Source: Sipunculus nudus (taxonomy: Eukaryota > Annelida > Sipuncula > Golfingiida > Sipunculidae). Taken from it: a stretch of 64,000 bases of DNA. The translations under genes were made by a program, and so were the position numbers. The notes beneath the pieces were generated by a model. The model searched no databases. It saw only the letters and a list, made by a program, of their open reading frames with translations, and was not told the origin of the DNA. The stretch covers positions 71,826,929-71,890,928 of the forward strand of contig CM049312.1 of assembly GCA_026874595.1 (NCBI GenBank), read 5' to 3'. This document shows, piece after piece, positions 2,021 through 40,751 of this stretch; positions within the stretch are counted from its first letter, which is position 1; each line of letters starts with the position of its first letter.

Positions 2021-3960
2021 GGTCACACATGCATAAAAACACATGTTCCTATGAGAAGGCGACTACTGACACCTAAATAAGTAACTGGATAGGGGAAGGG
2101 GCTGTCAGGGCCGTTCAAACATGTTTATGTGTGTGTGGAGGGGGGGGGATGTGTCGTACCAGAGATGGTGCATGCTGAAACAAATCTTACCTGAAAAAAC
2201 CTGGTTCTACTGGCTACAAAAATGGCTGAGCAGAAAAGGGGTGTTCCATGGGTGTCAGCCATTATAAAATCAAGTGATTTCCCAAAATAACCACTGCAGG
2301 GATTGCAAGACACTGAAGAAAGACCACAAGTGGTGTGGAGCAAACAAGGGACCTCATTCTGAAATTGTTAAAAAGCCATGTGGGGTCTGACTGACAGCCT
2401 TGGAGTACCCCTCATCAATCATAACAGCATGGTGAAAGTCTGGAGGCTCCAGCAGTGAAACCAACCATGTATCATGGATGTGCCTGAAGTAGACGTCTAC
2501 ACTAGATAACTGTAGAAAACCATAGAACGATTAGTGAAATACAGGGATTAAACAATAAATTTAATTGGCTAATGTTGAGAACCTAGTTACTCGTTCACGA
2601 AATGAGTTCTAGCACATAAATTGACTTTAGTGGGAGGGCTTTATGAATATGATGGCATTGTTCATTTCTGCTGCCTTTCTATTGCTGCCCTTGGGCAGGT
2701 AATGTTGGCGGGTGACTGGCTATGGTGATCTGTGGCTGGCCTGGAAGGAATCTCGATCATTCCAAATTAACAAATAATAAATCTTTAGAGAAATCAAATG
2801 AATAGAGAGAAAGTCAGAACTCATTAATTGATCTGTCAGTCAAAACATCTGACTACTGGACATCATTCTGTATTACTTCAACTGACTAATATTCTTTTAC
2901 ACTGCTATAGATCACATATAGATCTATAGAAATCGGCCAGTGATATAGAGCAAATAGGTGTGTGGATGACCAATGTGGGGAAAGAAAGAGGGGAAATATT
3001 CAACAGTGTGCTGACTATGGGTGAATGGGCAGGTATCTTGCAACTGTGCTGGGGCATTGTGCATCGATATAAAGAGGCTAATGAGTCTCATCCCCTTGTC
3101 ATCTATGTCAACAGGGTTTGTCTGCATTTCTAGTGAAAATAACCAATATTCTTCAGGCTGACAGAAATATTCAAAGACATATGTATACCCCCTCCCTCCA
3201 CCTGAAAACATGCAGAGACAGATTCAGCAATGAACTTACTGAACTCTAGCCGACTGAAGCCCATGATGCAGACAGGATATCATATTACACTTGAGCTGAA
3301 CACAACTTCAAATTCTGGCCGTTATTCAGGAGATTTTTACGACAGAAGTTGTGTTTGTCAACTAGAAAGAGAATTTATTGCTGAAAAATGTCTCAACTGT
3401 GAGTACTCTTGCACTACTTGCAATAAACCAGTGATTGCATAAAGATGGTTAAGTATTTCTTCATAAAGTGCAAAGTTTGCAGAGTGTTTGGGGTATTCGT
3501 TCAAATTCTGTACATTTAAAACATTACAAATTCAAACCAAACCGTATAAGTTCAACAGTTCTCTTTAGTTTAAATACAAAATGACTGTCTTTGCTGCTCC
3601 AAGCAAGAACAAGGCAAGCTTAAAAATACTGATACGGGCCCCTGACAGCACTCAAAAGCTGGATGACCACAAAATTGCTGAAAATATCCAAAATTAATGA
3701 AAAACACAAATTCCCGCTTTCATGTTTTGGTCCCTTAACAAGAAATAAAACCAAAATATCACAGAAATACATAATACAAAGAATATACTCATAAAATAAA
3801 GCTTTTATCCGTTAAACATAGTCTGAAAATAATGACAAAATATAAAAATAAATTCCCACACCCCTCACCCAGGCTCAAAAATAAAATATTGTATAATTTT
3901 GACTTAATTCTCCATACAGACAAATATGAAATCCATTTTTAAGCAACAATCTGATTTAAA
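2021..3960. other. No recognisable gene
   Basis: This is mixed-composition sequence with only short open frames. One of them (3230-3442, +) has several cysteines, ending CLNCEYSCTTC, but it has no family resemblance I can defend. A G9 tract lies near 2142-2150. I see no repeat structure. Confidence 0.4.
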
Positions 3961-3966
3961 CACTGA

Positions 3967-4173
3967 ATGGTCCAAAGCACTGTTTTACAGATTGGCACAG
4001 GTGTAGAGGGCTATCGTAATGACAGGAGGGAGATCTGCAGAAGGAGGGGGATAACCTTGCTGCCACAGGTCCTGGTACTTGGTGGTTCCATCATGGACAT
4101 TAACCAGGTGTTTGTTCTCATGGAGGATGCTACATACCAGGTCAAAAGTGTCCTGAAAGCAGTAGAAATGTGA
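3967..4173 (+). pseudogene. Short coding-like fragment, unidentified
   Basis: A 68-codon frame contains QVLVLGGSIMDINQVFVLME followed by Y-x-V-x-S-V-L-K-A-V. The alternation of hydrophobic and conserved-looking polar residues suggests old coding sequence, similar in style to proteins captured in animal transposons, but I cannot name the family. There is no upstream or downstream exon with which it obviously joins. Confidence 0.2.
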
Positions 4174-4875
4174 TTTAAGGTTAACTATTTATTCCACCTT
4201 GAATATTCTATGGAAATCAAGGATGTTTGGACATTTTTACAGTTATTCGTATATGATATTCAAACATCTTACCACAGAACAACTTCAGCAGTCTGAGAAT
4301 TCCTTGGCCTGGGTTATTAAAAACACTGTGCCAAACCAATGTTCATTACACATATCTTTTCAAATATACAGATTATACCTTGAGATCTTATTGAAAAGAT
4401 TATGGTTTGTTTTTCATGGTCCCATATTTATAGATTATTTATAGATTATTACACATATTTATAGATTTATATGTATCTACCACTGCATGGTGTCCGCTCT
4501 GCTGTCATTGTACAAGATGTGTAAGGTCCATGTTTAATGTCTCTTCATGCTTGCAACATTTCTATTCATGTATAGAAGAAGGTTAATTCATGGCATCAAG
4601 ATAAGTTTATTTAGCATGTTAGTCTGTCATCTTTAAGTTTGAGTTTAAGAAGTATGTCATCTTTAGGAGTGAAATTATATATTAGCCAAAGAGGATAATT
4701 TTAAATCCTGTTTAAATATATGTTTAAGCAATATTTGAGAATATTGAGTGTCTGGTCCTGACAGGTGCATACTAGCAAACACATACATATGCATGTTTTT
4801 TAATGTAGATATATAGAAAAATAACTTCCCCTTATTCTTAGTAAAAAGGTTACTCATAAATCAGTTATATTTAAC
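4174..4875. other. No gene seen; AT-rich spacer
   Basis: AT-rich sequence with a local duplication of TTTATAGATTAT around 4428-4465. No gene or element end is recognised. Confidence 0.4.
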
Positions 4876-5070
4876 CTAAAACATCAGTTGCTGTCAACCG
4901 AAATATCAGCTGAATGTTAACTGATTCTATCACAATGCAGTTATTATGGTTACTGATCTTAAAACAGTTATGTCATCTGATATTTAAGTTAGGGTTATTT
5001 TTACCAATTGAATCAGTTAGAATCAACCGGGTTTTTTTTTTTTCAGTTGATTTTAACTGATATGTTTTAG
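4876..5070. mobile_element. MITE-like inverted-repeat element, about 195 bp
   Basis: The left end (4876 onward, CTAAAACATCAGTTGCTGTC) is imperfectly complementary to the right end (5041-5070, finishing AACTGATATGTTTTAG) over about 28-30 bp. The interior contains several CAGTTA/TAACTG words in both orientations. No coding capacity and no unambiguous target duplication are seen, so the superfamily is left open. Confidence 0.45.
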
Positions 5071-5284
5071 AGTGTATACTGTATACATATTATAATAAAC
5101 TGTTTTGATAAATTGTGTTAAAATTTTTTTGGCATAAGGTCGCCTATTTTTACAAACTGTTTTTGTCACTTGTCGGTCTACATCAACTGTTAGTGTTATT
5201 GTCAGTGCTAGAGACTAGTAGTGCTTGCTTCACAGAAAACAGGTTGCTGGGGATTGTTAACTTTTCACCTTGGTCCAGAGACCT

Positions 5285-5381
5285 GGGGGGGGGGGATTTA
5301 CAGAAGCCACTGTGTAGGGTTACCCGGCAGCCCTGTGTATGTTGTGTCCACTGAAACAAAGGGGGGGGGGGGGGGGGGGGG
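5285..5381 (+). repeat. Two poly-G tracts, the longer G21
   Basis: A run of about ten G lies at 5285-5294 and an uninterrupted run of 21 G at 5361-5381. The short 'ORFs' crossing them are poly-glycine or poly-proline artefacts. Long G runs recur across the window (841, 21745, 39180, 50801) and as poly-C at 63669. Confidence 0.9.
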
Positions 5382-5399
5382 AGTAGCTTCAATCTTCTT

Positions 5400-6600
5400 G
5401 AAGACTATGTGGCAGCAAAGCCAATTTCATGTCAGAACTTCAAAAGTTATGTCAAATTTATGTTAATGTTTGTATCGGTTCAAGTCAACATTAATGTCCC
5501 ATCATAATGTGTGCATCACATCATCAAAAGTGTTCAAGTCTGTATATTTATTGTTTTATATGCTTTGTTTGAATCTATATGGCTCAGTCATACATGATTG
5601 GTGATGCTGCTGGAGACAATGACTGTTACTAGAAGTTGTTTATGATGTATCTCAGATCTGGTCATGTTATGTATATTTTACATTGTTAAACCTTCATGTT
5701 ACATCTGTTTGGAATGCTTTAATCAATTTGTACTCTATGTTTAAAATCCATGGTAATGTAATGCCAAGGGTGCCAGTGAGATGGGCTTCTGATTTAATGA
5801 TAAAGGAAAAGCCACGTCAGTAGATAACCTTTAAAGTGAAGTTCAACTAAAAATAACTTATATAAGATCTATACAAAACAAAATTAAACTTGCACCTCTG
5901 ATGGTGAATATTACACTCTATCAGTTCCATCAATATAATATTACTTCCTTAAGAAATGTTTTTTGGACAAGTTTATATGAATGAATATACAGTTAACCTG
6001 TATGTGTTAATTAGTGGCTCATAGCTGACAATTAATATTTATCATATGTTATCATTTGTTTATTTTAGATTCACCATGAAATGCCATATGACACAAAAGG
6101 AAATCATGCATGTGTAAGTAGTGCGCCATTAAAGCTTATTATACTACATATATTATATGCATTACATATATCGTTTTTCATGCATTTTGTTGGTGTTTTT
6201 CAATAACTGAATGAAATGTGCCGTCAGTAAAAATGTGACCAATAACCATATTAACTTCACAGTAAGTAATTTCGAGGATCAAAATTCAGTATAATTTTAT
6301 AATCTTTACACAGAATCTTAACTTATCGAAAATATTTTATAGAATATTTAATAATGTTTATACTTGAAAATATATGTAATATAAAGGAAATAGAACAGAG
6401 TATTCTTGTAAAGTAAATTCTTTTCAGCACCGAGTGCCACACCTTGAAGCTGTCCCTAGTTGAGTAAGCAGGGTACCCACATTCCTGTGGCATGACAGGG
6501 GACACATGCTGTACAGTGCTGGTCACCTCATATACCATATTTAGTCAACAGAAAGATGTTTACAGACTCTGCATTACCTTATTTGTCACTGTGTATATTG
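5400..6600. other. No gene seen
   Basis: AT-rich sequence with scattered short frames. No repeat units, element ends or splice-bounded coding segments are recognised. Confidence 0.4.
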
Positions 6601-12122: not shown

Positions 12123-12327
12123 ATAAAAGCTACTCTTTCCAATCAATTCCTTTGAAATTTCAGATTTTAAAAGATTAAATGTATATGTAAACATACTGTG
12201 AAAATTAAATCAACAGGTCTCAAAACATGCAAAAGTCCAAGTTTCAAAACGTGCCCTGTTAACAGACAGACAACAAGACAGCCAGACTGACGGATGGCGG
12301 ACAAAGGACCATGACTATAGCTCAGAT
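12123..12327 (+). mobile_element. Pearl-type repeat, 3' part, left half (interrupted by the RAG1-like transposon)
   Basis: The sequence resembles the body of the copy at 31168-33780 (AATAAA-containing block, then CATACTGTGAAAATTAAATC near 12193). It continues through AAACGTGCCCTGTTAACAGA and a short ACRG-like tract to the first arm of the 3' hairpin, CTATAGCTCAGAT, where it stops at 12327. The missing second arm lies at 18415-18441, on the other side of the RAG1-like transposon. Confidence 0.8.
12324..12327 (+). other. Target site duplication AGAT, left copy
   Basis: AGAT directly precedes the CAC terminus of the transposon and is repeated directly after its GTG terminus at 18415-18418. A fifth base does not match (C on the left, A on the right), so the duplication is read as 4 bp. 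Confidence 0.75.
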
Positions 12328-12367
12328 CACAGCAGTTACAATGCTGCCCAAGCTGTATGTTTAATGG
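12328..12367 (+). repeat. Left terminal inverted repeat of the RAG1-like transposon
   Basis: It begins CACAGCAGTTAC, then about 16 bp not shared with the right end, then GTATGTTTAATGG. The first 12 and the last 13 bases match the right end in inverted orientation; the extra bases are an indel relative to the right terminus. Confidence 0.8.
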
Positions 12368-13081
12368 CCTGTTTACTACAGCACCCTGCTGGCTGGGGTA
12401 TCGCTTACACCCCTGCCTCCAGAGGGTATGTTGCTAGGCAACAGGGATGTTCCAATATGGCGGACCCCTAGCAACAGACTATACCTTTCCCAAATAAATT
12501 CCTCATTAATCAGTTACTGTATCTTGTACTGCCTCCCAGATGACCCCTTATCCAGGCCCATATATCAACCTGTCATGGTAACATAAACAATGCCACTGGG
12601 GTAAGTTTACCAGCCCCACAGTGGTCAGTCACTGTGTTGCCAGGGTACATGACAGGAATGGCAGTTGTGGGCGTCTGTAAGTTAAAAAATTTCAGTTGTT
12701 TGTATTTTTAACCAAAATCAAATGTATGATTCTGTTAGAAAAACGTGTGTTTTTTGTCATGCTGAAAACCAAAGTTTGATTTAATTTTTTGTTTGAATGT
12801 AAAACCTGGTCTTTTGAGACATGTAGAGTCATAATGGCTGTTGCTGCTGGAGCCCCCTGAAGTTGTGTATGGGGTTTGATGTTGAGGATACACATGAAAT
12901 ATTGTCACTTTTTTGTCCATTTATTCTTGTACTCAATTATACATTCTTAAATTCATAAAAATAACCCTGAGTATTATTCCTAAATGCATAAGTATAACCC
13001 CAGATGCTAAGTGTTTCTGTGCATGGGCATATCAAATTATTCCATTCCCCCTTCAATTTAACATAAACACAGTGGGTCATA
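12368..13081 (+). other. 5' noncoding part of the RAG1-like transposon
   Basis: Contains an imperfect inverted pair TTGCTAGGCAACAGGG / CCCTAGCAAC (12430-12476) and a CACAGTGGTCAGTCACTGTG palindrome at about 12616-12635. These could be subterminal transposase-binding structures. The promoter is not identifiable by eye. No coding sequence precedes the ATG at 13082 in frame. Confidence 0.45.
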
Positions 13082-16000
13082 ATGGACAGATCTCTTGACT
13101 CCCATTTGGCATATTTATCCATGCTTTGTAGAGTATGTGGGAACAAATGCCAAACATACGTTCAAAAACTTAAATACAAGCCCATTATGTGCAAGGATAA
13201 TACTCAAAGAATATTTGATGTTTATGGCATTGACATATCACAAGATCAGAAGGATACACACCCAGAGCACCTTTGCAGAAAATGTTACATTAAGATATTC
13301 AACCAGAAAAAAACATTTGGAAATGCAGATGCTCGTAAATCTAAGAACCATGAAATGGCAGTGCTTATCAATAGCAAGTGGTTACCTCACAAGAGAGGGG
13401 CTCCTCAAAATTGCTTTGCATGCAGCCAAGCTGCATCGCAAAAGAAAACTGGTCGACCGGTGAAAAGTAGGCGTGGGGCTCCAAAACGGATTCCAGATGG
13501 ACTTCTGTTCAATCATAGGGATTCGAATATTTTTGACTTCAGTGCAGAGAAGGCAGAAATAAAATTTAACAACATGAATATAGAGGGGATGAATGAAACA
13601 CAAAAATCAATGTTCATATGTCCAATTTGCCAAGATATTTATTCCACACATGCTGTGTCTGGAACTTGTGGTCATTATTTCTGTGCACACTGTATCAGTA
13701 TGGAATTTTGCCAGGCCCTGTCAAATAATATTGAATGTCCTGTGTGTAGTGGCAATTTAGACTTCTTAAGCTGTAGAGTAGCAGATAAAAGGTTCCAGGA
13801 TCAAATTCTTTCTTTGGAACTCACTTGTAATTTGTGCCAGGTGACTTCAGCTGCAACAGCTATGACGGAACATGCATGCAGACCTAAAGTTAACACAGCA
13901 AATACGGTAATAGAAACAGAAACAGTACAACTAGAGATTGAGGGAGAGCAGGCATCCTGTTCCCCTGGTAAATCTCAGAGTGTCCCAGATCCTGTCACAC
14001 CTGTTCATGAACCTGATGCCACAGTACCTTCACAACTTGCGCGGTCTATTCCGATGATGACAACCGCAATTCAAACATCCCCCAGTATAATGCCAATGAC
14101 GCTGGATGAGAGCATGGAAAGGACCATACAAGAGCCACCCTTACCAGCTGAACGGCATTTGTTCACTAACTTGGCAAAGAGGATGCTGAGATTTTCTAAA
14201 GAAAAGGGATCGATCAGGTGCAAAAATAAACGAGGACAGGTAAGATTTAATTTTAATATGAGCATCAGAAATTCCATTTTTTTTTAAAGTATTTTCATAA
14301 ATATCATTAAGGCTAATTTCATTATCAAATAATTGCTTGTGTAAACTTTTTCCAGCCAATATTGCTTCAGAGAACAGTTGTACCAAGGAAATCCTCAGAG
14401 AAAGCCCCAAGTTATTTGGTCAGAAGACGTGCTGCAAGAATCGGAAAACTTAGGGCAGTGTTAGCAGGCAAACAGGAAAAAGCATTGAAAATACAGCATG
14501 CTAGTGAATTGAAAAAACTGAGTAAAGAAACAAGAAGAGACGTTTGCAGCAAAGCCGGGGTTGCCAGTGGTGGTCGTCTCAACAGATATACTAGCCTGGC
14601 AATGAAAGCTAGCCTTGGACTTACTTGGGGCCAGATGAGAAAACATAAGCGGTATGTTCAGTTCAGATTAGATCTGAAAAATTTCATTTTCACATTCAAA
14701 TAAGTGTCAAGTGCTCAAATTAATTAATAATTTGAAATAAGTAATTGTTTCCTTTTTCAGATTTATGAGGAGAGCTGGCATGGAGATCGAAAATGAACAT
14801 AAAGAACGGGCTGCCAGGAAGGAGATTGTATCAGAAAAGCTTGTTGGTAGAACTGCAAGGTTTCTTGAGAAAGATGAGAAACATCCTGACAGAGATAAGA
14901 GTGGGTTTGTGGAAGTGGAGGTGCCCTTTGTGTACGTCAATGACATAGCTGGCTTTGTCAATGATTTGTTGGACAGATATCAGAGGTAATTAGTTTACTT
15001 TAGAAAATAAATATATACACTATCGATTAAAAATTTATTCACTATCGATATTATTTTCATGCCTGTCTAATAGTATCTAGTAAAATTTAAATGTTTTATT
15101 CTGTAAAATGTATGTGTACTCAATTTCAAGGAGTAAGCTGTTGTTATGGAGAGATGGGATGATGGCCGAGCAAGCAGATGATGAAATTTGGATTAAAATT
15201 GGTGGAGATCATGGAGGAGGCAACATGAAGTACACATTACAAGTGCTCAACCTGAAAGAACCCAATGCAAAGCAGCACACATTTGTGATTGGTTGCTTTG
15301 AAGCTAAGGATCTCCATGAAAACCTTCGGCGTTCTCTGGAGGTTATGAAACCTTGCATTACCAAGCTGGCACAGATGTCATGGAAGTAAGTTATCAAAAA
15401 TACAAACAAAATATACAAAGAATGTTTAACACCCCAGAATAACACAAAATATATGAAAGCAAAATATTTAATTTTATAGATAACTATTTTCGTCAAAATT
15501 GCACCGTTTAAAGCTATTTAAAAAAGTATCAAACGATATCGTTATTACAGTGTAAGGATTATTTTTTGCAGTGGCAAAAGAATTCGTCTGTTCCTCAATG
15601 GGGATTATGACTTCCTGTGTAAAGTGTATGGTCTCTCTGGACCAAACGGTAAGTATTTCTATTTCTCTAACCTTTCTGTATAAAGAAAAATAAAATATAT
15701 TGTGTTTTGTTAATTATGTCACTTGATCAGTGATTGTAAGGCATATTTTTTTCTCCAGGCTCTTATCCATGCCTTTGGTGTGATGTTCCCAAGAAAGCCA
15801 TGCAGATAAGGCGCCGGGAAAGAATTTCCCAACAACGCATGCTGTCACTCATTAAAAAACAATATTCTGAATACGTAATACTTGGCAAAGCAAAGAAGGT
15901 GAACGCATCAGCATTCTACAATGTCATTCATAAACCTCTGCTGGACATCTTTATCAACCATGTAAGTATATAAAGTTATCCTGGAATTTTATCACTCAAG

Positions 16001-16480
16001 GTAAATTTGCCCATTCCCAAATCTTTTTTCTCATAATTTTAAACATATTTATCTTGATAGCTGCATGTTTTAAATAACTTTTATACATTTTTTTCAGGTA
16101 GCTCCACCATATTTGCACATTCTTCTTGGCATTGTGAAAAAACATCATGACCTGTTTATCAAAGACTGCCATGACACAGACATGGAAATTGCAAAACACC
16201 TTTTGCAAAATAAGTGTCCATCCAGCAATCCAGTCATGATACGATACAGAGATATGGTCAAATTGGCACAAGAAGTAATGAGCATAGAGGAAAGAATCAG
16301 AGCTCTTCAACAACAGATTAGTGTTGTTGATGACAATGAGGACATTTCATTAGCAGATATGGAATCTCAAAGAAGAGCTTTGGAAAAGGAATTGCGTGAT
16401 ATGGTAAGAATTTATACATGCATTTTTTCAAATTTGAAAGTAAATTAAAAAAAAAAAAATACAAGACACCATTTCTGTAT

Positions 16481-16532
<52 letters not shown>

Positions 16533-17453
16533 TATATTATATTTATTTCATATAAAGGAAAGAAAACAGAAGACCCTTCAGAATCCACCAACATCGGAAA
16601 TGAGAGTAGGACCAGTGACAAGAACATTAGATCAGACCTTAGAAACCAGTGGCATCGTTGTGCAAGCTTACCACAGCCACAGCTTTGTCGGAAACCACTG
16701 TCACAAATACCTACAGGTATGTATGCAATTTCTGTATCTATATCAATATCAAACATTATAATTTTATTGGTTTAAAATAATTAAAAAGACAGCAGCATTG
16801 GTCTAAAAAAATATGTCCATATTGTTTCAGGAACCAGTCTACAATAACCTATGCGACAAGATGGTCACAAAAGTTAAGGTGTACATAGACAATGCCTTGA
16901 TTGTGAACAAAGCCTTTGTGACTGCACAAACTTATAAAATGCTGAATAAGCGGTTTGCTGCAGTTCACAGAATGGTTTCCCGGGATAGGGCCATATCTGC
17001 TGAGGAGTGTGATATAATAGGTAAGATTTTAATCTTTGATTATTCATATATAACATATATGATTTACCCATTCATTATAAAGAATACGCATAAAATACAT
17101 GCATTTAAATATGTGTATATAAATTCGTCTTTCCAGAGCAGAAGATAGATTCATACCTCAGCTATTACCGGCGCGATCTAAGTCAGCCTCTCACACCGAA
17201 ACACCATTTTTTGGAGGATCATGTTGTATCTTGGATTCGGAAGTGGGGCTATGGGATGGGTCTTCATGGAGAACAGGGAGGGGAAGGGATCCATGCCGTC
17301 ATCAATAAAATTAAAAGGGCAACATGGGCAATTAAAAATCCAGTTTCAAGACTGCTTTCGACCATAAAGGAGCAGCATACACAGTGTGCTCCAGAGATTC
17401 AAGCTGAAATTCCAGCAATCAAAAAGAGAAAATCTAAAAGCACCTCTGATTAA
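13082..17453 (+). CDS. RAG1-N/RING plus DDE transposase, ten exons, 1061 aa, intact
   Basis: Exons by GT/AG sites: 13082-14239, 14356-14651, 14761-14985, 15131-15385, 15572-15648, 15759-15961, 16098-16403, 16558-16716, 16831-17020, 17137-17453. They join in frame with no stop (3186 nt). Residues 16-19 (CRVC), 65-68 (CRKC after HPEHL) and 111-114 (CFAC) match the RAG1 zinc-binding N-terminal region in order. Residues 180-222 are a C3HC4 RING (C180, C183, C196, H198, C201, C204, C219, C222), followed by a C2HC-like site (C249, C252, H264, C266). The transposase core has D586 in IKIGGDHGGG, D656 in NGDYDF, a CLWC zinc pair at 675-678, a helical, charged segment (about 790-850), FVGNHCHKYL at 883-892, and E1002 in LHGEQGGEGIH. 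These parallel RAG1 D600, D708 and E962. It should act in the nucleus, cutting CAC-ended termini; the RING suggests E3 ligase activity. Length is close to vertebrate RAG1. Exon borders are predictions; 15131 is the least certain. Confidence 0.85.
16486..16525. repeat. (TA)n microsatellite in intron 7 of the transposase gene
   Basis: A run of about 20 TA dinucleotides lies between exons 7 and 8 of the transposase gene, just before the predicted acceptor at 16556-16557. The acceptor context is AT-rich rather than a strong polypyrimidine tract, making this the weakest acceptor in the gene model. Confidence 0.9.
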
Positions 17454-17604
17454 TCACAGGTTAAGGAAAGAAATTATAGCCTTTAGGCCTTACCCAAAGA
17501 GAAACAATATTTATAGAAAATAGTTGGTACGAGTATATGATGTTACTTGTGTACAGAATGACAAAATATTTTATAGAGGCCAGGTTTCATTTTTATTTAC
17601 TGTA

Positions 17605-17639
<35 letters not shown>

Positions 17640-18383
17640 TACATTACTGATGACATGTATATATGACCATAAATGGATCATTTTTCATCACTTAAAACAA
17701 TATTATTTTGTAATATTTTTTGTATTTTTTCAGTCATTATTCGCATTTATCCACTTCAACATATTTACAAGTATCATAAGTGTTTCATATAACACATATG
17801 TTCTCATATAAATGTTAAATATACTTCTTTGTTCAAATGATTGACATCCAATGGGTTTCAGGCATGAAATTCCTTATTATTTGTATGTGACTGACAGCAA
17901 ATATACCTCAATTTCTGATAACTCTGTCTCTTTAGAAAAAAATTAAATCAACATATTGAAAGCACACATCTTTTGTGAAATATAGTGTAATTGTTCTCTG
18001 AAAATTTGGTTGTTATAAAAATACAAGTGCTTGTGTAGTCACTTAGACTGTATCTTTAATTTCATGGAATGATTTGTTTTTACAGTGACAACAAGAATGG
18101 TGTAGTAGTTTGTGTTGTTAACTCATTCTGTAGTGTTGCTCCTCAGATGAATAATAATATAACTTGTATGTTCAAATTCCTGAGAAAATTACCTTTCAGT
18201 GCATATATATATTGTCTTGGGTGTATTTTTAATAAAAAATATATGATGGAAAACATACAGGAGATCTTGTTATAAACACAGGTTTATCAGAGCCCCGGTC
18301 ACACTGAGTGTGTAACATGATACTGATGCTGCTACACTGGTGGCCAGGGGCTGTGTGTATACACAGTAGCTCAGCCTATGTTC
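17454..18383 (+). other. 3' noncoding part of the RAG1-like transposon
   Basis: AT-rich sequence after the stop codon with a (GT)n run at about 17609-17636 and several AATAAA-like words (for example about 18228). No second gene and no kelch-like repeat coding is visible. Confidence 0.5.
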
Positions 18384-18414
18384 CCATTAAACATACACCA
18401 GCGTAACTGCTGTG
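18384..18414 (-). repeat. Right terminal inverted repeat of the RAG1-like transposon
   Basis: Reads CCATTAAACATAC...GTAACTGCTGTG, the inverted counterpart of the left end (12328-12367) with a shorter central spacer. It ends in GTG, immediately followed by AGAT. Confidence 0.8.
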
Positions 18415-18441
18415 AGATAACTTATAGTCAGCTGAGCTAAA
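18415..18441 (+). mobile_element. Pearl-type repeat, right half of the 3' hairpin (with right AGAT duplication)
   Basis: AGATAACTTATAGTCAGCTG then AGCTAAAA continues the hairpin that stops at 12327. Joining ...TAGCTCAGAT to AACTTATAGTCAGC (one AGAT removed) gives the standard end seen intact at 25151-25179 and 51450-51480. Confidence 0.8.
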
Positions 18442-20095: not shown

Positions 20096-21267
20096 ACTAG
20101 AATACGGGTAACCGACAAGTGACTACATGTATCTGCCAAAATCGGATAGTGAGGCATGGATTGAGTGGCAAGGGGAAATAGAGTGAGGTATGTTGCATAT
20201 TAGCATGGATGTCTGCAGCCTAAATGTGTATGTAGGTTGTGCCACCTACCACAAATCCAGAAAGCTGTCCAAGTTGTATACACCTGCAAAATTTTAGGCA
20301 GAAAAGTCAAACCACTACATGTATATGAGCGATTTTTGCCCATGGCAGACAAACAGACAAACACTGTGCAAAAATCTTTGCAGGTAACCCCTCCAGTTTT
20401 GTGTATGATAAAGACCTATGTGAGATCTAAACACATGCACAATTTTGGCCCAATCGGTCAAATGGTTCCTGAGATATGAGCTTGGATGTGTCCAGCGTTA
20501 ACTAGAATGTAGGTGGCGCCACCTGTCATAAAATCAAGAAAGCTGTCCACGATGTATAAACCTGCAAAATTTTAGGCAGTTATGTCGAACCACTTCAGAG
20601 AAATGAGTAATTTTAGGCCACGGCAGACTAACAGACAGACACTGTGCAAACATTGTTACAGGTGGCACCACCATTTTTTGTGTATGTTACAGAGCTATCA
20701 AAGGGCTACATTTGTATAAATTTTATTCCCTGATCGGTCAAACGGTTCCCGAGATATAAGCTTGGATGTCATCAGCGTGAACGTGAATGTAGGTGGCGCC
20801 ACCTGTCATAAAATCAAGAAAGCTATCCTGGATGTATTCACATGACGAATTTCAGGTGAATTAGTCAATTCACTGCAGAGATATGAGTGATTTTAACCCA
20901 AGGCAGATGAACAGATGGACACTGTGCAAACATGGTTACAGGTGGCGCCACCATTTTTTGTGTATGTTATAAAGCAATCCAAGGGCTACATTTGTATCAA
21001 TTTTATTTCCTGATCGGTCAAACGGTTCCCGAGATATGAGGGTTTATGAGTGGAAACAGACCCACAAATGGACACTGGATAGAGAGGAAAGGTCAGAGGT
21101 CAATGCAAATTGGTTAGGCACCAGTTCACATGTGACCCGATAATAGGTGTAAGTTTGGGAAAAATAGGTCCATTAGTCTCCGAGGAGCTCTCTGGAAACG
21201 AACGCCCCTGCGGCGGAGGAACTAGGTCAAAAATATAGTATCCGCAAAACTTCGTTTTGGTGGATAC
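20096..21267 (+). mobile_element. Second hairpin-ended element nested in copy 1
   Basis: It starts ACTAGAATACGGGTAACCGA and ends in the imperfect palindrome GTATCCGC-AAAAC-TTC-GTTTT-GGTGGATAC (21238-21267). The interior has about 278-bp tandem units, each with two GGTGGCGCCACC-type boxes (20512 and 20790 mark one of the two). The same element occurs alone, in reverse orientation, at 58711-60174, which defines its limits. Confidence 0.75.
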
Positions 21268-24200
21268 AAAAATACAGGTGGCTCCACCAGTCTGAAGAAA
21301 CTAATAAAAACACTTAATGGTCAATATCCATGCAAAAAATCATGGTGATCTCTGCATTAGTTGTTCAGATACTTCAGTTTTTGTATTAAATTGTCCATTA
21401 TTCTGAGGGATACTTCGGAGTCCTATAGCTTGAAGGATATGGGTAACAGAGACCTAATTTCAAGTTTCCACAGGCACCTTTCATGGGCCTCCTTGCATGA
21501 CAAGAATGAAGATTCTAGGTCCAGTTGTTGCGATTTGTACCATGTTGACAGATAACCACATTTTTAAAGGTCTCAAAAAAAAGAAAAAAATTCGTAAAAA
21601 TTTGAAAAAAAAATAGAGGTGGCACACCCAGTCTGCAGAAACTGATGGAACAGCTCATGATTAATATGTATGCGGAAAATCATGACCATCAGTGTTGTAG
21701 TTATTGAAATACTGCAGTTTTTGTATCAAATTTTCCATTATTCTGGGGGGGGGGGGTATTTTGGACCCATACAGCTTAAAGAATATGGGTAACAGAGACC
21801 TAATTTCAAGTTTCCATGGAGACTTTTCATGGGTCTCCCTGTGTGTCAAGAATGAAGATTCTTGGTCCAGTTTTTATGATTTGTGCCCTGTTAACAGATG
21901 TTCATATCTTTAAAGGTCTCAAAAATACAGAAAAATTTCGTAAAAAAAAACGAACAAATACAGGTGGTGCCACCAGTCTGCAGAAACTTATGAAACACTC
22001 CATGATCAATATCCATGCAAACAATTATGGTTATCTCTGCATTAGTTGTTCAGTTACTTTAGCTTTTGTATCAAATTTTCCATTATTCTGAGCTGTACTT
22101 TGGAGTGCCATAGCTCAAAGGATATGGGTAACAGAGACCAAATTTCAGGTTTCCATAAACTGATGAAACATCTCATGATCAATATGTATGTCGAAAATCA
22201 TGACCATCAGTGATGTAGTTAATGAGATATTGAAGTTTTTGTATGAAATTTTTGACTATTCTGGGGGGTAATTTTGGGCCCCATAGCTCGAAGGATATGG
22301 GTAACAGAGACCTAATTTCTGGTTTCCATGGAGACTTTTCATAGGTCTCTCAGTGTGTCGAAAATGAAGATTCTAGGTCCAGTCGTTACGATTTGTGCCA
22401 CGCTAACAGATGACAGCATCCTCAAAGGTCTCAAAAATAGAGGAAAAAATCGTAAAAAATCAAACAGTACAGGTGGCGCACCAGTCTGCAGGAACTGATC
22501 GAACATCTCATGATCAATATGTATGCCAAAAATGAAGACCATCAGTGATGTAGTTATTGAGATATTGAAGTTTTTGTATGAAATTTTTTACTATTCTGGG
22601 GGGTACTTTGGGGCCCCACAGCTCGAAGGATATGGGTAACAGAGACCTAATTTATGGTTTCCATGGAGACTTATCATGGGTCTCCCTGTGTGTCAAGAAC
22701 GAAGATTCTAGGTCCAGTCGTTACGATTTGTACCCTGTTGACAGATAACTACATCCTTAAAGGTCTCAAAAATGGAGAAAACAATTCATGAACATTGAAA
22801 AATACAGGTGGCGCCACCAGTCTGCACAAACTGATGAAACATCTCATGATCAATATGTATGTCGAAAATCATGACCATCAGTGATGTAGTTAATGAGATA
22901 TTGAAGTTTTTGTATGAAATTTTTGACTATTCTGGGGGGTAATTTTGGGCCCCATAGCTCGAAGGATATGGGTAACAGAGACCTAATTTCTGGTTTCCAT
23001 GGAGACTTTTCATAGGTCTCTCAGTGTGTCGAAAATGAAGATTCTAGGTCCAGTCGTTACGATTTGTGCCACGCTAACAGATGACAGCATCCTCAAAGGT
23101 CTCAAAAATAGAGGAAAAAATCTTAAAAAATCAAACAGTACAGGTGGCGCCACCAGTCTGCAGGAACTGATCGAACATCTCATGATCAATATGTATGCCA
23201 AAAATGAAGACCATCAGTGATGTAGTTATTGAGATATTGAAGTTTTTGTATGAAATTTTTTACTATTCTGGGGGGTACTTTGGGGCCCCATAGCTCGAAG
23301 GATATGGGTAACAGAGACCTAATTTCTGGTTTCCATGGAGACTTATCATGGGTCTCCCTGTGTGTCAAGAACGAAGATTCTAGGTCCAGTCGTTACGATT
23401 TGTACCCTGTTGACAGATAACTACATCCTTAAAGGTCTCAAAAATGGAGAAAACAATTCATGAACATTGAAAAATACAGGTGGCGCCACCAGTCTGCACA
23501 AACTGATGAAACATCTCATGATCAATATGTATGTCGAAAATCATGACCATCAGTGATGTAGTTAATGAGATATTGAAGTTTTTGTATGAAATTTTTGACT
23601 ATTCTGGGGGGTAATTTTGGGCCCCATAGCTCGAAGGATATGGGTAACAGAGACCTAATTTCTGGTTTCCATGGAGACTTTCCATAGGTCTTTCAGTGTG
23701 TCGAAAATGAAGATTCTAGGTCCAGTCATTACGATTTGTGCCACGCTAACAGATGACAGCATCCTCAAAGGTCTCAAAAATAGAGGAAAAAAATCGTAAA
23801 AAATCAAACAGTACAGGTGGCGCACCAGTCTGCAGGAACTGATCGAACATCTCATGATCAATATGTATGCCAAAAATGAAGACCATCAGTGATGTAGTTA
23901 TTGAGATATTGAAGTTTTTGTATGAAATTTTTTACTATTCTGGGGGGTACTTTGGGGCCCCACAGCTCGAAGGATATGGGTAACAGAGACCTAATTTATG
24001 GTTTCCATGGAGACTTATCATGGGTCTCCCTGTGTGTCAAGAACGAAGATTCTAGGTCCAGTCGTTACGATTTGTACCCTGTTGACAGATAACTACATCC
24101 TTAAAGGTCTCAAAAATGGAGAAAACAATTCATGAACATTGAAAAATACAGGTGGCGCCACCAGTCTGCACAAACTGATGAAACATCTCATGATCAATAT

Positions 24201-25080
24201 GTATGTCGAAAATCATGACCATCAGTGATGTAGTTAATGAGATATTGAAGTTTTTGTATGAAATTTTTGACTATTCTGGGGGGTAATTTTGGGCCCCATA
24301 GCTCGAAGGATATGGGTAACAGAGACCTAATTTCTGGTTTCCATGGAGACTTTTCATAGGTCTCTCAGTGTGTCGAAAATGAAGATTCTAGGTCCAGTCG
24401 TTACGATTTGTGCCACGCTAACAGATGACAGCATCCTCAAAGGTCTCAAAAATAGAGGAAAAAATCTTAAAAAATCAAACAGTACAGGTGGCGCCACCAG
24501 TCTGCAGGAACTGATCGAACATCTCATGATCAATATGTATGCCAAAAATGAAGACCATCAGTGATGTAGTTATTGAGATATTGAAGTTTTTGTATGAAAT
24601 TTTTTACTATTCTGGGGGGTACTTTGGGGCCCCATAGCTCGAAGGATATGGGTAACAGAGACCTAATTTCTGGTTTCCAAGGAAATTTTTCATGGACCTC
24701 TCAGTGTGTCAAGAATTAAGATTCTAAGTCCAGTCTTTATGATTTGTGCCTTGTTAACAGATGATCACATTTTTAAAGGTCTCAAAAATAGAGAAAAAAA
24801 TTCGTAAAAAATCGAAAAATACAGGTGGCGCCACCAGTCTGCAGGAAGTGATGTAACATCTCATGATCAATATGTATGCCAAAAATCATGACCATCAGTC
24901 AAGTTGTTAATGAGATATTGAAGTTTTTGTATGAAATTTTTGACTTTTCTGGGGGGTACTTTGGGGCCACATAGCTCGAAGGATATGGGTAACAGAGACC
25001 TAATTTCTGGTTTCCAAGAGATTTTTTATGGACCTCTCAGAATCCCAAGTTACAAGGTTCTAGGTCCAGCGGTTACGATT
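21268..25080 (+). repeat. Array of about 336-bp monomers with a 672-bp higher-order period
   Basis: The box ACAGGTGGCGCCACCAGTCT (or close variants) recurs at about 21275, 21612, 21960, 22469, 22805, 23140, 23477, 23813, 24149, 24484 and 24821. From 22469 onward the spacing is 335-337 bp. Two monomer types alternate ('...CTGCAGGAACTG' and '...CTGCACAAACTG'), producing a near-identical dimer repeat of about 672 bp. One unit near 22.15 kb carries a deletion. Confidence 0.85.
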
Positions 25081-25183
25081 TGTGCCTGGTTAACGGACGG
25101 ACAGACGGACAGACGGACAGACGGACAGACGGACAAAGAGTGATCGCTATAGCTCAGATGACTTTCAGTCAGCTGAGCTAAAA

Positions 25184-37354: not shown

Positions 37355-40300
37355 CAAGTGACCCATGGGTCATGACGCTCAGCTGACTGGGAAGAGATTC
37401 GCAAAAGGAAATTTTATCATCAGAATGGTAGTATATACCCATTCAACTGAAGCATCAAACAGATTAACCAACAGGCCAAGATTTAGTCTGTATTTATATA
37501 TCTCAAAAATAGAGAAAAATGTGTAAACTTTTAAAACTAGAATACAGGTAACCGACAAGTGACTACATGTATCTGCCAAAAATCGGATAGTGAGGCATTG
37601 ATTGAGTGGCAAGGGGAAATAGAGTGAGGTATGTTGCATATTAGCATGGATGTCTGCAGCCTAAATGTGTATGTAGGTTGTGCCACCTACCACAAATCCA
37701 GAAAGCTGTCCAAGTTGTATACACCTGCAAAATTTTAGGCAGAAAAGTCAAACCACTACATGTATATGAGCGATTTTTGCCCATGGCAGACAAACAGACA
37801 AACACTGTGCAAAAATCTTTGCAGGTAACCCCTCCAGTTTTGTGTATGATAAAGACCTATGTGAGATCTAAACACATGCACAATTTTGGCCCAATCGGTC
37901 AGATGGTTCCTGAGATATGAGCTTGGATGTGTCCAGGGTTAACTAGAATGTAGGTGGCGCCACCTGTCATAAAATCAAGAAAGCTGTCCACGATGTATAA
38001 ACCTGCAAAATTTTAGGCAGATATGTCGAACCACTACAGAGAAATGAGTGATTTTAGGCCATGGCAGACTAACAGACAGACCCTGTGCAAACATTGTTAC
38101 AGGTGGCGCCACCATTTTTTGTGTATGTTACAGAGCTATCAAAGGGCTACATTTGTATAAATTTTATTTCCTGATCGGTCAAACGGTTCCTGAGATATAA
38201 GCTTGGATGTCATCAACGTGAACGTGAACGTAGGTGGCGCCACCTGTCATAAAATCAAGAAAGCTATCCTGGATGTATACACATGACGAATTTCAGGTGA
38301 ATTAGTCAATTCACTGCAGAGATATGAGTGATTTTAACCCAAGGCAGATGAACAGATGGACACTGTGCAAACATGGTTACAGGTGGCGCCACCATTTTTT
38401 GTGTATGTTATAAGCAATCCAAGGGCTACATTTGTATCAATTTTATTTCCTGATTGGTCAAACGGTTCCCGAGATATGAGGGTTTATGAGTGGAAACAGA
38501 CCCACAAATGGACACTGGATAGAGAGAAAAGGTCAGAGGTCAATGCAAATTGGTTAGGCACCAGTTCACATGTGACCTGATAATAGGTGTAAGTTTGGGA
38601 AAAATCGGTCCATTAGTCTCCGAGGAGCTCTCTGGAAACGAACGCCGCCGCAGCGGAGGAACTCTGTCAAAAACATAGTATCGGCAAAACTTCGTTTTGG
38701 CGGATACAAAAATACAGGTGGCTCCACCAGTCTGCAGAAACTAATAAAAACACTTAATGGTCAATATCCATGCAAAAATCATGGTGATCTCTGCATTAGT
38801 TGTTCAGATACTTCAGTTTTTGTATCAAATTGTCCATTATTCTGAGGGATACTTCGGAGTCCTATAGGTTAAAGGATATGGGTAACAGAGACCTAATTTC
38901 AAGTTTCCACAGGCACCTTTCATGGGCCTCCTTGCATGACAAGAATGAAGATTCTAGATTCAGTTGTTGCGATTTGTACCCTGTTGACAGATAACCACAT
39001 CTTTAAAGGTCTCAAAAAAAAAAAATTCATAAAAATTTGAAAAAAAAATAGAGGTGGCACACCCAGTCTGCAGAAACTGATGGAACAGCTCATGATCAAT
39101 ATGTATGCCGAAAATCATGACCATCAGTGTTGTAGTTATTGAAATACTGCAGTTTTTGTATCAAATTTTCCATTATTCTGGGGGGGGGGGGGTATTTTGG
39201 ACCCATACAGCTTAAAGAATATGGGTAACAGAGACCTAATTTCAAGTTTCCATGGAGACTTTTCATGGGTCTCCCTGTGTGTCAAGAATGAAGATTCTTG
39301 GTCCAGTTTTTATGATTTGTGCCCTGTTAACAGATGTTCATATTTTTAAAGGTCTCAAAAATACAGAAAAATTTCGTAAAAAAAACCGAACAAATACAGG
39401 TGGTGCCACCAGTCTGCAGAAACTTATGAAACACTCCATGATCAATATCCATGCAAACAATTATGGTTATCTCTGCATTAGTTGTTCAGATACTTTAGCT
39501 TTTGTATCAAATTTTCCATTATTCTGAGCTGTACTTTGGAGTGCCATAGCTCAAAGGATATGGGTAACAGAGACCAAATTTCAGGTTTCCATGGAGACTT
39601 ATCATGGGTCTCCCTGTGTGTCAAGAACGAAGATTCTAGGTCCAGTCGTTACGATTTGTACCCTGTTGACAGATAACTACATCCTTAAAGGTCTCAAAAA
39701 TGGAGAAAACAATTCGTGAACATTGAAAAATACAGGTGGCGCCACCAGTCTGCACAAACTGATGAAACATCTCATGATCAATATGTATGTCGAAAATCAT
39801 GACCATCAGTGATGTAGTTAATGAGATATTGAAGTTTTTGTATGAAATTTTTGACTATTCTGGGGGGTAATTTTGGGCCCCATAGCTCGAAGGATATGGG
39901 TAACAGAGACCTAATTTCTGGTTTCCATGGAGAATTTTCATAGGTCTCTCAGTGTGTCGAAAATGAAGATTCTAGGTCCAGTCGTTACGATTTGTGCCAC
40001 GCTAACAGATGACAGCATCCTCAAAGGTCTCAAAAATAGAGGAAAAAATCGTAAAAAATCAAACAGTACAGGTGGCGCCACCAGTCTGCAGGAACTGATC
40101 GAACATCTCATGATCAATATGTATGCCAAAAATGAAGACCATCAGTGATGTAGTTATTGAGATATTGAAGTTTTTGTATGAAATTTTTTACTATTCTGGG
40201 GGGTACTTTGGGGCCCCATAGCTCAAAGGATATGGGTAACAGAGACCTAATTTCTGGTTTCCAAGGAGATTTTTCATGGACCTCTCAGTGTGTCAAGAAT

Positions 40301-40751
40301 TAAGATTCTTAGTCCAGTCTTTATGATTTGTGCCTTGTTAACAGATGTTCACATTTTTAAAGGTCTCAAAAATAGAGAAAAAAATTAGTAAAAAATCGAA
40401 AAATACAGGTGGCGCCACCAGTCTGCAGGAAGTGATGTAACATCTCATGATCAATATGTATGCCAAAAATCATGACCATCAGTCAAGTAGTTACTGAGAT
40501 ATTGAAGTTTTTGTATGAAATTTTTGACTTTTCTGGGGGGTTATTTGGGGCTACATAGCTCGAAGGATATGGGTAACAGAGACCTAATTTCTGGTTTCCA
40601 AGGAGATTTTTTATGGACCTCTCAGAATCCCAAGTTACAAGGTTCTAGGTCCAGTGGTTACGATTTGTGCCTGGTTAACGGACGGACAGACGGACGACGG
40701 ACAAAGAGTGATCGCTATAGCTCAGATGACTTTCAGTCAGCTGAGCTAAAA
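37355..40751 (+). mobile_element. Large pearl-type composite element, copy 2
   Basis: Near-identical to 19915-25183 through the 5' end, the nested element (37536-38707, ending in the GTATCGGC...GCGGATAC hairpin) and the flanking monomers. It carries only about six 336-bp monomers (boxes at about 38716, 39051, 39399, 39732, 40070 and 40406) against about eleven in copy 1. The ACRG tract is also shorter (about 40679-40700). The two copies differ mostly by monomer number and small substitutions, so they are recent relatives. The flanking DNA is unrelated. Confidence 0.8.

Follow-up and report, generated by a model that had tools for sequence, protein, structure and literature searches.

Is the asymmetric, bipartite arrangement of DNA ends familiar from the 12/23 signals of RAG1/RAG2 also found outside the RAG1-core family? 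The question is raised by a DNA transposon of Sipunculus nudus that lies in a 64,000-nucleotide stretch of contig CM049312.1 (assembly GCA_026874595.1, positions 71,826,929–71,890,928, forward strand; the whole stretch is called the window, and positions are counted from its first letter). This element had been described, from its letters alone, as a complete RAG1-like transposon that might tell where the RAG1 N-terminus came from (the original prediction). By its hallmarks it is a Chapaev (CMC) element and not a member of the Transib/RAG side, and each of its ends carries a CAC terminus and an inner box, at spacings that differ by 9 bp between the ends. The finding bears on how the 12/23 rule arose. 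Fixed asymmetry in Chapaev, which stands beyond the RAG1-core family yet shares the RAG1 N-terminus, would suggest that unequal bipartite ends are an older or recurrent solution.

Bipartite ends with a constant 9-bp asymmetry

At the left end of the window element, 14 bp separate the terminus from the inner box TGTATGTTTAATGG; at the right end the same 14-bp box follows the terminus after 5 bp. Counted from the 7-bp heptamer to the best 8-mer block, the spacers are 15 and 24 bp. We compared these ends with those of relatives in the same genome. Besides five young copies, the window element among them, we fetched 18 regions with divergent relatives and L025 (37–62% protein identity). Both ends could be located in ten of these elements, either by terminus and target-site duplication (TSD) or where copies cease aligning. 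L029 just completes L025, and L028, L032–L034, L037, L039, L040 and L043 are without one or both ends in the fetched piece. Further lineages may be missing, because the protein searches for relatives scored the best 43 of 352 and 112 of 161 candidates.

In all 15 elements the gene-5′ box core begins at +32, and in 14/15 the box core of the opposite end begins at +23; in the exception, the right end of L042, the block is in place with its last base changed. Termini differ between lineages (CACAGCAGTTAC, CACAGCGGTTAG, CACACCAGTCTA/CACACTTGTTTG and CACGGCTGTTTC), and so do the spacers. L044, which has the most different ends, carries the box ACTTAGTTCTC at both of them with 11/11 box bases identical left to right; here terminus and box are altered at both ends together and the register is unchanged. 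The ends thus have two conserved blocks at two fixed spacings about one helical turn apart, and the 9-bp asymmetry is constant across six lineages of one genome.

Because the box motif had been recognised by eye, we ran a motif-free joint test, in which left–right 8-mer identity was summed over six lineage representatives for every pair of offsets. The best pair was +31/+22, with 41 of 48 positions identical, and the top 12 pairs all lay at a shift of 9. The right ends were shuffled base by base 2,000 times, and no shuffle scored above 29. The same offset pair stayed first on removal of the window element, then L044, then L038 (0/500 shuffles each). Among lineages tested singly, the best score was reached by 0/1,000 shuffles for the window element, 1/1,000 for L044 and 14/1,000 for L038.

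Pairing of long and short ends across the genome

We searched the genome (1.43 Gb, 153 contigs) with two patterns in which the gap was free between 0 and 30. The first gave 35 hits, 18 short, 15 long and 2 others (reversed control 2); one of the 15 long hits, a 39-bp hit at C12:42359192, reads as an abundant repeat, which leaves 14. The second gave 24 non-satellite hits, 11 short, 9 long and 4 others (reversed control 5), one of the four being a short end with one extra base. Left out of this second tally were 55 satellite hits on C9:1.90–2.00 Mb. They looked bipartite and were considered as a signal array, a candidate that we rejected when the fetched piece (L045, C9:1957000–1966900) proved to be a 52-bp satellite filling all 9.9 kb; the flanking pattern hits span ~100 kb. 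All 12 outward-facing pairs within 12 kb joined a long with a short end, with no long+long and no short+short pair. Two of the twelve, at 2.4 and 2.8 kb, look non-autonomous by their length.

We consider it quite probable that the window element is a young, probably still autonomous Chapaev cut-and-paste transposon, whose transposase binds two places at each end and pairs a long end with a short one. The gene, presumably expressed, would yield a 1,061-amino-acid (aa) transposase with Chapa, RING and DDE core that binds each end twice, at the CAC terminus and at the inner A/T-rich box. By analogy with RAG and Transib, both ends would be held in one complex, with the core seated on the CAC terminus while the box is contacted by a different part of the protein, possibly the Chapa zinc region or a basic stretch at ~aa 433–500. 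The long-spacer end (gene 5′ side) would be paired with the short-spacer end, and the 9-bp difference, slightly under one helical turn, would tell the ends apart and favour mixed pairs. Cleavage at CAC would then be followed by joining into a 4-bp staggered target.

Several observations count against this reading. Long+short pairing is also expected from the descent of complete copies, and the lineages, all taken from a single genome, have a common ancestry. One of the 15 right boxes deviates from the motif, which was itself written after the ends were seen. L027, L030 and L031 show no significant left–right box match when tested singly (442, 524 and 161 of 1,000 shuffles reach their best score), and their best single match falls off the 9-bp diagonal. 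The genome patterns miss changed ends because they demanded exact boxes, and seven further loci (L054–L060, of which L054–L056 belong to the L035 and L044 lineages) yielded no element with two readable ends. Among the five young copies, a dN/dS-like ratio is just 0.63, from 27 changes, and coding and non-coding sequence vary about equally.

The main rival explanation is that a longer ancestral inverted repeat underwent a single 9-bp indel ahead of the divergence of the lineages and left the boxes as remnants, so that the spacing records history and not function. As the lineages are all related, a single early indel would suffice to explain the shared 9 bp, and the weak left–right box similarity in three lineages would fit this reading. 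However, the boxes have retained motif and register across lineages whose spacers have diverged, and the L044 boxes have changed in concert, unlike neutral remnants, which makes a frozen indel unlikely in our view. The box could also be a regulatory element or the site of a host protein, for example a DNA-bending factor, and not a transposase site. Its motif is A/T-rich, and this analysis identified no box-binding domain. Yet each end carries the box in constant register with the cut site, including the 3′ end, which lies far from the promoter, and its sequence varies between lineages within one host; we regard a host site as improbable.

An intact and recently mobile element

Within the window, CACAGCAGTTAC with at most one mismatch has 3 matches against 0.20 expected, and the TSD is 4 bp, not 5. 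The element lies within a dispersed host repeat, and the unoccupied target is visible in further copies of it. A query that fused the two flanks around a single AGAT yielded 2,304 candidates; among the 40 that were scored, 37 were other host-repeat copies matching across the junction; two of the remaining three were the window's own flanks, and one did not cross the junction. The best match is 91% identical over 113 bases, with equal length on either side of the junction. Empty sites and further copies establish the boundaries and the 4-bp duplication, and the predicted inverted termini with an AGAT duplication are read directly in the window.

A genome-wide search for terminus, free gap (0–28) and inner box gave 12 hits, namely five complete pairs and two single left ends (reversed control 0). 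Copy counts are lower bounds, with at least five complete copies in addition to L026, whose right end is damaged. The five complete elements (window element and L021–L024) measure 6,080–6,125 bp, diverge pairwise by 0.30–0.44% and have five different TSDs, each a perfect 4 bp (AGAT, TTTA, GGGG, ACCT and TGCT). Their gene is open in four of five; that of L022 is one codon shorter, and L023 has a stop at codon 638. Variable columns number 27 of 3,186 in coding and 28 of 2,951 in non-coding sequence, the coding changes comprising 8 silent and 19 replacement changes; such equal variation is as expected of young insertions. Judged by these copies, the window element is intact and recently mobile, as had been predicted, and the proposed search for further copies with the same termini has added four complete ones.

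An open ten-exon gene might alternatively be a domesticated host gene. Five complete copies with different TSDs and the empty sites contradict domestication, which we rule out as having a negligible probability.

Counting copies by the bare 12-bp terminus was dropped. CACAGCAGTTAC has 3,118 exact hits in the genome against 71 for the reversed control, but among 20 inspected hits, all on C1, 19 fall inside an abundant repeat unrelated to it, so this number is no count of the window element. The abundant dispersed repeat (for example, L001–L018) itself carries CACAGCAGTTAC, in the context gaaaattaaatcCACAGCAGTTACAG, and probably accounts for most of the ~3,100 exact hits. A stretch similar to it occurs in the left flank of the window element at ~12190–12211.

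Gene model

Rebuilt from the window with canonical splice sites, the gene (13082–17453) has ten exons and nine GT–AG introns and reads through 1,061 codons without a stop, in agreement with the original prediction. Sixty-four combinations of nearby GT/AG sites, the chosen one among them, stay open (1,049–1,061 aa); the stop-free frame is therefore real, yet the exact junctions are partly ambiguous. The exon joins are supported independently of RNA, because GT–AG is retained at all nine introns in the five copies and because intronless relatives at ~40% identity have proteins collinear with the spliced window protein. L035 covers aa 48–1057 in one frame with one stop, and L036 covers aa 1–552 and 554–1057 in stop-free stretches of 559 and 497 aa with a frame change between them. 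L035, L036, L038, L041 and L042 form a Chapaev subfamily with an apparently intronless gene and the same end architecture as the ten-exon subfamily.

A Chapaev transposase with a RAG1-like N-terminus

Chapaev elements (Kapitonov and Jurka 2007, cited in PMC4411706 and PMC4079192; here and below, published work is cited from the portions of each source that we consulted) belong to the CMC/CMCT group named in PMC12730594. Their definition includes the termini and the TSD (PMC4079192), and the motifs C(2)C, LH and H(4)H are published hallmarks (PMC4079192, PMC12730594). CAC termini are present in 15/15 elements with both ends (CAC was a search criterion for five of them). A perfect 4-bp TSD flanks 14/15 (a search criterion for four), the exception being TTAT/TTGT, and a 5-bp TSD flanks 0/15. 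The TSDs fall in the 3–4 bp range of Chapaev (CMC) and, being 4 bp and of varied sequence, differ from the TWA 3-bp TSD of the Chapaev3 subgroup (PMC4079192). The protein carries a DDE triad together with the C(2)C, LH and H(4)H motifs, and a RAG1 N-terminal match, standing in for Chapa, lies ahead of the RING. These motifs, the CAC termini and the 4-bp TSDs assign the element to Chapaev rather than Transib/RAG, whose RAG1-type core (PF12940) and 5-bp TSD (0/15) were not found. The link to Chapaev that had been drawn from CAC termini and a 4-bp duplication is thereby strengthened.

In Pfam, the window protein matches RING (PF13445, aa 180–220) and DUF1280 (PF06918, aa 458–630, E 1e-17); RAG1 importin binding (PF12560) matches at aa 4–136 with E 0.0016, under the cut-off. 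Among solved structures, a search with the single sequence recovered RING proteins, with no RAG1 among the best 60 of 66. A profile of the window protein and stretches of its relatives matched residues 101–384 of long RAG1 chains at profile positions 7–275 (E 2.9e-7), and the same profile matched a RAG1 N-terminal chain at positions 7–116, ahead of the RING (E 5.4e-5). The RAG1-N-like region of the original prediction is thus recovered. Profile comparison with three RAG1-like (RAG1L) proteins from this genome aligned the N-terminal part at 97.5% probability. Best hits to a non-RAG/Chapaev family had been named as a refuting result; in Pfam and solved structures the matches are RAG1-N, RING and DUF1280. 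AlphaFold gave exon 1 alone a predicted local distance difference test score (pLDDT) of 31.8. No relatives of the window protein were found in viral and prokaryote contigs with a single-protein query, which reaches close relatives only.

The catalytic scaffold comprises D586, D656, CxxC, L744-H745, H980-x4-H985 and E1002 (D-D-CxxC-H4H-E), with CxxC 19 residues past the second D, as in the three RAG1L proteins. Over the 18 relatives' rows, which are not independent, D586 is conserved in 15, D656 in 14, C675 and C678 in 15, L744-H745 in 16, H980 and H985 in 15 and E1002 in 16; the rest are gaps (1–3 per site) or other residues (0–2). Of the Pfam models, DUF1280 alone matched the core significantly. 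This domain of unknown function contains the first catalytic D of the window transposase, and its 32 genome matches all overlap Chapaev protein matches by their coordinates, which suggests that DUF1280 is probably a piece of the Chapaev transposase.

Could the element nevertheless be of the RAG/Transib type, with a true RAG1 core? The RAG1-N-like N-terminus, the D-19-CxxC and H4H-E arrangement shared with RAG1L proteins of the same genome and the collinear core segments below threshold would all be in keeping with this. The TSDs are, however, 4 bp and not 5 bp. Searching the genome with PF12940 (RAG1 core) gave 34 matches, with all 39 candidates scored, and the window element was not among them. 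The core segments, though collinear, aligned with the three RAG1L proteins at <1% probability, a weak negative because both profiles are shallow (effective number of sequences (Neff) 2.4–2.8 and 1.8). We rejected RAG1 core homology by profiles as not significant, with agreement limited to motif spacing; a true RAG1 core is very improbable. The scaffold is of the RAG1 kind, with a core not recognisably RAG1, and 'RAG1-like transposon', as first worded, is not supported: the Pfam RAG1 core model does not match the element, and the core profiles, which are shallow, give no significant alignment.

A Chapa domain followed by a RING in two Chapaev subgroups was published in 2015 as a clue to the RAG1 N-terminus (PMC4411706). 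The headline of the original prediction is not new, since this architecture was already known; the window element adds a good new example to an answer already known for the origin of the RAG1 N-terminus.

Comparison with known systems

Inner transposase sites that are unequal in spacing or number between the two ends are also a feature of the P element and of CACTA/EnSpm. P has unrelated ends, and CACTA has many subterminal repeats, in contrast to one box in fixed register. The 12/23 signals of RAG1/RAG2 resemble the present ends in their CAC-first heptamer-like terminus, inner A/T-rich element and two spacings. They differ in shift (9 bp here against 11 bp), box sequence and the 4-bp TSD found here; in addition, no RAG2 gene was seen in the window element and its core is not recognisably RAG1. 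No open reading frame (ORF) of ≥160 aa lies within the element apart from exon 1, although short exons could be concealed by introns and the element was not scanned with a RAG2 model. N-RAG-TP of Aplysia was reportedly described by Panchin and Moroz in 2008. Compared by description only, it is likewise a transposon with a RAG1-N-like region, but is described as made up entirely of RAG1-N-like sequence (PMC8355894).

Asymmetric bipartite ends are known in RAG1 relatives, namely some Transib families (12/23-like) and amphioxus ProtoRAG (27/31) (PMC8355894, PMC8289069). These have 5-bp TSDs and other spacings and stand on the Transib/RAG side, whereas the window element stands on the Chapaev side. 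Most Transibs are described with symmetric ends and a few with 12/23-like ones, the 27/31 asymmetry of ProtoRAG is functional, and for protostome RAG-like (RAGL) elements it has been proposed that asymmetry probably matters relatively little (PMC8289069, PMC8355894, PMC7204232). In PMC8355894, a figure legend calls the ends of eastern-oyster RAGL asymmetric, and the text has ProtoRAG as the sole such invertebrate case.

The window element shares with published Chapaev elements the CAC...GTG termini, the 4-bp TSD, the DDE core with C(2)C, LH and H(4)H, and Chapa then RING (two subgroups). It differs in the fixed 9-bp asymmetry between its bipartite ends, which the consulted portions of PMC4411706, PMC4079192 and PMC12730594 do not mention. 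More widely, we found no statement on asymmetric Chapaev ends in the consulted portions of the open-licence PubMed Central (PMC) literature, a scope outside which Repbase Reports fall. Provisionally, given that scope, bipartite Chapaev ends with fixed 9-bp asymmetry are new here, the RAG1-N/RING architecture being already known.

We tentatively raise the possibility, towards which we do not lean, that Chapaev transposases in general obey a long-end/short-end rule (heptamer-15-box with heptamer-24-box). The paired-signal logic of V(D)J recombination would then either be older than the divergence of Chapaev and Transib/RAG or have emerged two or more times with the same RAG1-N-containing architecture. 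If true, Chapaev would provide an extant outgroup for tracing how the 12/23 rule began.

Features of the window element and other loci

The coordinates of the element are collected in Table 1.

Table 1 Features of the Chapaev-type element in the window
Feature	Position	Strand	Basis
Complete Chapaev-type DNA transposon, 6,087 bp	12328..18414	+	Termini, TSD, copy comparison, empty sites
TSD AGAT, left copy	12324..12327	.	Direct reading; single-AGAT empty-site query matched across by other repeat copies
TSD AGAT, right copy	18415..18418	.	Direct reading
Left terminus CACAGCAGTTAC, heptamer-like CAC end	12328..12339	+	Direct reading; mismatch search of window
Right terminus CACAGCAGTTAC, inverted	18403..18414	-	Direct reading; mismatch search of window
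Left inner box TGTATGTTTAATGG; core TTTAAT (12360-12365) begins 32 bp from terminus (long-spacer end)	12354..12367	+	End alignments, joint shuffle test
Right inner box, same 14 bp as left (TGTATGTTTAATGG); core TTTAAT (18386-18391) begins 23 bp from terminus (short-spacer end)	18384..18397	-	End alignments, joint shuffle test
Exon 1, 386 aa: RAG1-N-like (Chapa) zinc region and RING	13082..14239	+	Gene model; RAG1 aa 101-384 against profile positions 7-275
RING finger, aa 180-222	13619..13747	+	Pfam PF13445 (aa 180-220, E 2.3e-6) and PF00097 (aa 180-222), both over cut-off
Exon 2	14356..14651	+	Gene model; splice sites kept in five copies
Exon 3	14761..14985	+	Gene model; splice sites kept in five copies
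Exon 4, first catalytic D586 (15207-15209); aa 458-630, Pfam DUF1280 match	15131..15385	+	Gene model, Pfam, relatives' alignment
Exon 5, second catalytic D656	15572..15648	+	Gene model, relatives' alignment
Exon 6, C675xxC678 (C(2)C motif)	15759..15961	+	Gene model, relatives' alignment
Exon 7, L744-H745 (LH motif)	16098..16403	+	Gene model, relatives' alignment
Exon 8	16558..16716	+	Gene model; splice sites kept in five copies
Exon 9	16831..17020	+	Gene model; splice sites kept in five copies
Exon 10, H980-x4-H985 and catalytic E1002 (17271-17273); stop 17451-17453	17137..17453	+	Gene model, relatives' alignment

RAG1L elements occur elsewhere in the genome. L050 (C2:3871000–3878000) has an uninterrupted RAG1-like frame of 997 aa (ORF 2313–5303, minus strand), and L052 (C10:30491000) has one of 958 aa (ORF 2592–5465, minus strand). 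Both frames contain PF12560 over the cut-off, a RING-like finger and a RAG1 core, so RAG1-N and RING are present in both Chapaev and RAG1L elements of the same genome. At L053 (C11:72620500–72627000), a RAG1L gene (2055–4568, plus strand) faces ORFs 4988–5611 and 5747–6406 on the minus strand, which have a kelch match, a PHD finger and a RAG2 match that at 20.9 bits falls just short of the 21-bit cut-off; by these matches the locus is likely a RAGL gene pair. The RAGL copies L051 (C7:53204500) and L052 are 97.5% identical and have a common left boundary that begins CACATACAGATGTG, with repetitive sequence downstream; the left boundary CACATACAG is present in two copies.

Elsewhere in the window, the same two tandem units (~280 and 336 bp) are found at both 20197–25094 and 37638–40679, which suggests a segmental duplication.

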